This document shows positions 4,439-34,492 of a DNA stretch of 47,303 bases, in pieces. Every line of letters begins with the position of its first letter. Position 1 is the first letter of the stretch. A program made the translations under genes and the position numbers. Below the pieces are notes generated by a model. The model searched no databases. It was not told the origin of the DNA and saw only the letters and a program-made list of their open reading frames with translations. Source of the stretch: Candidatus Peregrinibacteria bacterium GW2011_GWF2_38_29 (lineage in GTDB: Bacteria > Patescibacteriota > Gracilibacteria > UBA1369 > UBA12463); NCBI GenBank assembly GCA_000992695.1, contig LBUS01000016.1:1-47303 (forward strand), read 5' to 3'.

Positions 4439-4584
4439 GATTTTTCCAAGATTTGTTTTGAAGACAGTCGCGAAACTGAACGAGCACGGTGTTTTGCAAA
4501 GCAAAACGAGTTCAGCTGAGCGCTAGCGCAGGTTTGCTCGCCGGGCAAACCAAACGTGTCTGAAAAACAAGATTGGAAAAATCC
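4439..4584. repeat. Multi-hairpin intergenic element A
   Basis: Outer arms GATTTTTCCAA (4439-4449) and its complement near 4572-4583 enclose several hairpins. One is CTGAAC (4476-4481) with GTTCAG (4510-4515), containing GTTTTGC AAA GCAAAAC (4491-4507). The others are the perfect palindrome GCGCTAGCGC (4520-4529) and GGTTTGC (4531-4537) with GCAAACC (4545-4551). It lies between the divergent uvrB and inositol-phosphatase genes, and its arms border both promoters. Its first hairpin shares sequence with element B. Confidence 0.75.
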
Positions 4585-6135: not shown

Positions 6136-6146
6136 AATAGTAGCGA

Positions 6147-6292
6147 GTTTTGCGGTCCGTAGCGCAGGATACGCGAATTTAGCGTATACGAAGCGAAGGA
6201 GGCCGAGTCAAAAATTAAACGAACAAACGTGAGGCTTATTTTTGAATGAGGCCAGCAAAACCCTATTGCAAAATAGCGCAGAGGCGGACCGC
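6147..6292. repeat. Multi-hairpin intergenic element D
   Basis: Between tRNA-Arg and the convergent cysteine-rich gene, two alternative outer stems occur: GTTTTGC (6147-6153) with GCAAAAC (6255-6261), and GCGGTCCG (6152-6159) with CGGACCGC (6285-6292). Inside are ATACGC (6169-6174) with GCGTAT (6182-6187), and TCAAAAAT (6208-6215) with ATTTTTGA (6238-6245). The outer-arm-plus-two-hairpins plan matches elements A, B and C. Confidence 0.65.
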
Positions 6293-22955: not shown

Positions 22956-23068
22956 AGTATTTTGTTAGGGGACGTTTCTATAACTGCTCTATTTTAACAT
23001 GCAGGGGGACAGAGGTACAACTCACGCCAAATAAAAAAACTTCACTGAAGTTGAAGAAAAAATAGAGG

Positions 23069-23212
23069 CTTTGGTATTTTCGAAATCAAAAAGTGTCATG
23101 GAGACCGAACGAACAAGGTGTTTGCGTTAGCAAACGAGTGAGGTCGAGTGCCAAGCTAAAATTTCCACGCAGGGGAAATTTATAGCGTCTTTTTGAGAGC
23201 GAAATACCAAAG
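23069..23212. repeat. Multi-hairpin intergenic element B
   Basis: Between the divergent M16 and PBP genes. The outer stem is CTTTGGTATTT (23069-23079) with AAATACCAAAG (23202-23212), continued by TCAAAAAG (23086-23093) with CTTTTTGA (23189-23196). Inner hairpins are GACC (23103-23106) with GGTC (23142-23145), holding GTTTGC GTTA GCAAAC (23120-23135), and AAATTTCC (23159-23166) with GGAAATTT (23174-23181). The first inner hairpin shares GAACGA, CA, GGTGTTT and AAACGAGT with element A. Confidence 0.8.
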
Positions 23213-23254
23213 TCAATATAGACAACCAACTTTTAGAAGTTTAAAATCTAAAGC

Positions 23255-30252: not shown

Positions 30253-30319
30253 AATCCCCTTTATAATTTATAATTTTAAATCTAAAATTATAAATGCTCT
30301 TTCTTGTTCGTGAAAAACC

Positions 30320-30450
30320 TATAATACTCTCTCTCAAGCACTATATGGGATTTCAATATTTAGCCTGACCGTGGTCAAGCTGTGAGATGTCCCACCTCTT
30401 TAAAACGAGGGTGTTAGTATTTAGGCGAGTACACGGCAAAAAGGAGCTTT
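30320..30450 (+). ncRNA. Possible structured RNA of unknown type
   Basis: A -10-like TATAAT stands at 30320-30325. The downstream 100 nt hold a long-range pair GCCT/AGGC (near 30363 and 30423), the inverted repeat TGACC GT GGTCA (30367-30378), and CACCTC with GAGGGTG (near 30393-30413). CAAAAAG GAG CTTTTTG (near 30439-30455) closes the region. It lies in a convergent gap between the M50 gene and the gene at 30456. It matches none of the common RNA families I can recall. Confidence 0.3.
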
Positions 30451-30455
30451 TTGAA

Positions 30456-34371: not shown

Positions 34372-34492
34372 ATAAAAAGTCGAGACACGAAGCTAAAAGC
34401 TGAGTGTCGATAGCAAAACAAGGTTTTTTAGGCGGCAACGAAATTAGTGGCCGCCGTTTAAAAAACACGAGCTAACGCGTAAGACTTTTTAT
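34372..34492. repeat. Multi-hairpin intergenic element C
   Basis: The outer stem is ATAAAAAGTC (34372-34381) with GACTTTTTAT (34483-34492). Inside are GACAC (34384-34388) with GTGTC (34404-34408), holding AGCT AAA AGCT, and GTTTTTTAGGCGGC (34423-34436) with GCCGCC (34450-34455) plus TAAAAAAC (34459-34466). It stands between the DUF5674-like gene start and tRNA-Ser(CGA). Confidence 0.75.

Follow-up and report, generated by a model that had tools for sequence, protein, structure and literature searches.

A previously undescribed family of probably mobile palindromic elements with a conserved folded core in Candidatus Peregrinibacteria and other Patescibacteria

Copies A and C in the window (the whole stretch of 47,303 nucleotides analysed here, contig LBUS01000016.1) belong to a previously undescribed family of mobile palindromic elements of approximately 150–200 bases, which is of a known kind by its behaviour. 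The two copies are likely (probability about 0.68) to represent a small non-autonomous mobile element that is processed while folded as a single strand and whose orientation is linked to replication. The element is gene-free, and gains and losses at intergenic sites affect its core and arms jointly. Mobile elements of Patescibacteria (CPR) have been poorly described so far, and a gene-free hairpin family that spans the phylum and shows replication polarity is a search target for a mobilising enzyme. In genomes that seem to replicate in a single direction, the element is also a natural marker of that direction, and it contributes to intergenic and promoter variation among close relatives.

Family members and the fold of the core

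The first-pass annotation described four intergenic regions (A to D) as one family, each with an outer stem around inner hairpins. Folding reproduces this plan at all four regions. The set nevertheless comprises three separate things, namely the A/C family, the B family, and the single-copy region D (Table 1). A single family of four was dropped, because only A and C are alike in sequence beyond chance, and the A/C covariance model found no match at B or D in the window search. In that search, the model matched copy A at E = 3e-38 and copy C at E = 1e-28; another search gave E = 6e-37 for the match 4452–4570 in copy A. The motif GAACGA(G/A)CA(C/A)GG, reported as common to two copies, is indeed present, the pair being A and C, and the flanking stems of these two copies differ yet pair, as had been claimed. 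Copy A is located between divergent uvrB (−) and inositol-phosphatase-family (+) genes (neighbours by Pfam), and copy C between an M16 peptidase gene (−) and a penicillin-binding protein gene (+), which likewise diverge. The orthologue of copy A in a congener is 99% identical, and a copy elsewhere in the genome (L018) has a core 96% identical to that of copy C.

Table 1 Positions of copies A to D and of the parts of copy A in the window
Feature	Position	Strand	Basis or remark
Copy A, whole unit (core with its palindromic outer arms)	4439–4584	+	fold, model match
Copy A, conserved core (covariance model positions 1–119)	4452–4570	+	model match
Copy A, outer stem, left arm, copy-specific sequence	4439–4459	+	arm tests
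Copy A, inner hairpin 1, conserved internal loop GAGCACGG opposite GAG	4466–4524	+	alignment helices 2–5
Copy A, inner hairpin 2, conserved tip CGCYGG (here CTCGCCGGG)	4526–4557	+	alignment helices 6–7
Copy A, outer stem, right arm, complementary to left arm	4564–4584	+	arm tests
Copy B, other hairpin repeat family, not the A/C element	6136–6271	+	starts directly after tRNA-Arg gene
Copy C (second subtype, AAAAAGTGTC...GCGTCTTTTT), whole unit	23067–23214	+	model match 23080–23199
Copy D, single-copy multi-hairpin region, not the A/C element	34372–34492	+	folds; no sequence relative in three genomes searched

The core of approximately 120 nt forms a three-way junction with two hairpins carrying conserved loop motifs. 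Two parts are constant throughout the phylum, namely GGGCAYGG facing GAG in the internal loop of hairpin 1, and the tip CGCTGG of hairpin 2. In 30 copies (29 distinct), 96.3% of the cells at paired positions are standard pairs, and changes on both sides are found in 29 of the 32 pairs, in agreement with the earlier claim of a selected fold with compensatory changes; the alignment leans towards the model structure, since it was made using that structure. The magnitude of the signal and a separate RNAalifold run nevertheless agree with the fold. None of 500 shuffles matches it on any measure, and pairing collapses when the structure is slid by 1–3 columns.

The sequence of the outer arms is free. 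At no position of the arms is a single base shared by more than 70% of the 23 genus copies, and no conserved position was found in the 45 nt on each side of the core. On average, 27.5 pairs join the left and right arms of the same copy, compared with 13.3 when arms are swapped among copies, and in 101 of the 116 copies own-arm complementarity is above the 95th percentile for mismatched arms. Recently spread copies (L015/L017/L018 and those in G289, a closed genome of the same order) have common arms, so that the arms travel with the unit and later diverge with compensation. In the orthologous pair L023/L038, the arms are altered on both sides and the cores are 92% identical. Seven empty sites have no palindrome, and an origin of the arms by insertion into pre-existing palindromes was therefore rejected as a general explanation.

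Copy B belongs to a family with at least eight copies in this genome. A tRNA gene, of many isotypes, adjoins 14 of the 15 copies read (ARAGORN; L215–L229) on the 3′ or 5′ side. Double changes are found in 23 of the 36 predicted pairs, and the closing stem covaries (GTTTTGC/GCAAAAC, GAAATGC/GCATTTC, GATTTCC/GGAAATC). No sequence relative of D was found in this genome or in two congeners (G000, G001, G002). D is near a tRNA-Ser gene.

Mobility and distribution among genomes

At all seven sites compared with the closest relative, the relative is empty; both core and arms are gone, and the flanking genes align. At L019 and L020, the flanking genes of the second congener are also close together without a copy, so that gain is the simpler history there. 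Cores 95% identical to each other are found in unrelated flanks. These copies, together with the seven absences that include the arms, indicate that the whole unit moves. Among the three options offered by the first-pass annotation (an RNA element, a DNA cruciform, or a non-autonomous mobile repeat), the last is the best supported by the empty sites, the dispersed copies, and the unrelated flanks. The seven occupied/empty pairs were read for a target-site duplication, and their boundaries are too diverged to define one; nor could a conserved end of the element be delimited. On the other side, some orthologous copies are nearly unchanged between congeners (99–100% identical), and these may have a function for the host.

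At three shared sites (L014/L034, L015/L040, and L016/L037), congeners carry different core subtypes, and what remains of an older L015-like copy, its left half, is kept in the flank of L040. These observations indicate that copies displace or invade one another. In G289, the A/C element is split by a second hairpin element and also sits inside that element. The second element (TTTTGCGTCATCGCGATTA...TAATCGCTGAAAGCAAAAT) is located in the hairpin 1 tip of the A/C element at L077–L089, and bears A/C copies in its own tip, giving a Russian-doll nesting. Another hairpin repeat (AAAATTGGA...ACCCCCA.CCCCTT..AGGGGACAATTTTT...) is located directly upstream of the A/C copies L017 and L018.

Model R1, built from a six-sequence alignment and with copies counted at E below 1e-15, finds 16 copies in this 1.23-Mb genome, so that the search proposed earlier for further copies and covariation has yielded both for A/C. 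Two congeners have 8 and 3 copies, and another family of the same order has 3 (R1 search). A second model, R2, detected the element in 17 of the 353 class genomes searched, and a phylum-wide search with it gave 27 carriers among 380 sampled genomes, the named relatives among them being Candidatus Peregrinibacteria. The R2 class search found no A/C element in the sister genus. None was found in the plasmids and phages searched, and two pattern matches in viral contigs were unconfirmed by the model.

Orientation and the strand that folds

The orientation of the copies follows the asymmetry between the two chromosome strands. All 14 A/C matches of closed genome G289 are on one strand, and the GC skew of that strand is negative in 20 of 20 samples round the chromosome. 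The skew of these samples (L108–L127; 998,424 bp) ranges from −0.15 to −0.45 with no sign switch, and this pattern looks like one-way replication; one paper reports ordinary skew curves for complete Peregrinibacteria genomes. When read in the orientation of the element, the skew is negative in 52 of 68 flanks in other class genomes (p = 1.4e-5), and in 31 of 44 flanks in a second, independent set from the phylum (p = 0.0096), to which G377 and G522 contribute 7/7 each. In the window, the skew is negative throughout and copies A and C are both on the + strand. The contig samples of this genome mostly agree, those of C1, C3, C7, and C12 being weak or mixed, and there are exceptions to the correlation, such as G407 and G683. 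Closely spaced copies in opposite orientation at L246, L262, and L263 (G354, G683) break the one-strand rule. The A/C copies thus sit preferentially on the C-rich strand, which is the lagging-strand sequence if the G-rich strand is leading. IS608-type elements act on the lagging-strand template (PMC6006769). The as-written strand of the A/C element is the C-rich one, opposite to the lagging-strand template entered by IS200/IS605 elements, and because of this difference the replication link is an observation with no mechanism yet.

The mismatches in the arms indicate which strand is under pairing constraint. On the as-written strand, 104 are G·T and 36 are A·C (p = 8e-9), so that this strand is the constrained one. 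In the genus core with the junction helix excluded, G·T accounts for 6 of 829 cells. The corresponding counts are 25 of 561 in tRNAs at these loci and 33 of 467 in the B family next to tRNA genes, the latter being an RNA-like share. The scarcity of G·T in the genus core leans towards DNA over RNA. The simpler argument that there are no G·T pairs, and hence that the element is DNA, is true in the genus core and weakened by the phylum-wide counts (2% of the core) and the arm asymmetry. The recognised form would be the as-written strand in a self-folded state, most likely single-stranded DNA, as suggested by the replication strand polarity and by the tolerance of G·T over A·C on that strand. A trans-acting protein would recognise the folded tip, consisting of the junction and the two conserved loops, and the arms would need merely to pair.

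The arm asymmetry also fits a mobile structured RNA, in which transcription of the as-written strand gives a folded RNA, and this RNA, rather than single-stranded DNA, is what functions or transposes; strong RNA-style covariation, conserved unpaired loops, and a conserved G·T pair in the junction helix point in the same direction. We regard this explanation as rather unlikely, since the genus core is nearly without G·T outside the junction helix, carriers such as closed G289 are without a reverse transcriptase, and transcription would run head-on to replication if the G-rich strand is leading. Furthermore, Rfam gave no match over any A/C element (the window at the gathering threshold and 10 loci at E ≤ 1). 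The fixed orientation upstream of one gene class that marks a cis-regulatory RNA or riboswitch was not found, neighbours and orientations being variable. A polar chromosome element of benefit to the host, linked to the replication fork as an oriented loading or restart site would be, and repeatedly gained and lost, could account for the uniform orientation with respect to strand asymmetry and for the near-identical orthologous copies in congeners. However, the A/C element occurs in just 5–7% of genomes, was not found in the sister genus, and is dispensable at 7/7 compared sites, and this explanation is very improbable. Still less probable is a conventional MITE with an overlooked parent insertion sequence. 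The A/C element is short, gene-free, palindromic, intergenic, and dispersed like a MITE, but it has no conserved terminal inverted repeats, with the arm sequences as variable as described above, and no transposase gene recurs beside the copies.

Known systems and candidate enzymes

The closest systems by behaviour to the small non-autonomous mobile element preferred here are the organellar double-hairpin elements and REP sequences. The organellar elements (DHE/RHE; PMC2800124) are likewise short, gene-free, multi-hairpin, and mobile among intergenic sites, with several families per genome and no known enzyme. The A/C element corresponds to them as a non-coding multi-hairpin unit present or absent among relatives, and differs in being bacterial, in having one core across the phylum and a much longer outer stem, and in its strand polarity. 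Sponge RHEs have conserved stems and variable loops (PMC2800124), the reverse of the A/C element with its variable arms and conserved loops. The resemblance is one of behaviour and no proof of homology.

The A/C element fails a defining test of each of REP/RAYT, MITE/ERIC, and attC. It shares with REP/BIME sequences served by TnpA-REP (RAYT; PMC6006769) the nature of a structured extragenic palindrome, and REP sequences are thought to move as folded single strands (PMC6006769). However, REPs are single hairpins of 21–65 nt with a GT[AG]G foot (PMC6006769), whereas the A/C element is a Y-shape of approximately 150–200 nt, most carriers are without the Y1 transposase, and no conserved GT[AG]G foot was found in the core margins or in the 45 nt beyond. 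Hairpin recognition and replication-strand bias are common to non-autonomous IS200/IS605 derivatives and the A/C element, but the latter has no defined cleavage sites or subterminal hairpins, and the enzyme is missing in most carriers. ERIC/IRU, RPE, NEMIS, and other MITE-like repeats (PMC2229807) are similarly intergenic, palindromic, and dispersed, at approximately 100–150 bp; most of these repeats have conserved terminal inverted repeats and TA-linked target duplication (PMC2229807), whereas the centre alone is conserved in the A/C element. Integron attC sites, which are recombination substrates, resemble the A/C element in that one strand is folded and structure is kept over sequence. Contrarily, the base (R boxes) is conserved and the tip varies in attC, while the tip is conserved and the base varies in the A/C element, where no R boxes (RYYYAAC/GTTRRRY) were found at the base of the outer stem, the sequence of which is free.

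Candidate enzymes were compared with carriage of the element. The Y1 (PF01797) transposase is present in carriers G000, G001, G002, and G305 and absent from 11 other carriers, including closed G289 with its 14 A/C matches; it was ruled out as the partner, showing no correlation with carriage. Reverse transcriptase was rejected since its presence is unrelated to carriage and it is missing in closed G289. Tyrosine recombinase (PF00589) genes number one to four in carriers and non-carriers alike, with none in carrier G505, and likewise show no correlation with carriage. No gene recurs beside A/C copies. A more far-reaching reading, namely a distinct Patescibacteria-wide mobile class with a tip-recognised Y-shape, coupling to replication, an enzyme outside the tested transposase, reverse-transcriptase, and integrase families, and nesting in the tips of other hairpin elements, is tentative and rather doubtful.

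Two minor observations were made during these searches. Y1 genes (152–228 aa) number one or two per genome of this genus and occur in 0 of 4 sister-genus genomes tested; none of the loci read (L153 at G000:C1:68652-68984, L152, L151, and L159) contains an A/C copy. In the window, a 6S RNA candidate at 30293–30451 (+) has a score slightly over the Rfam gathering score.
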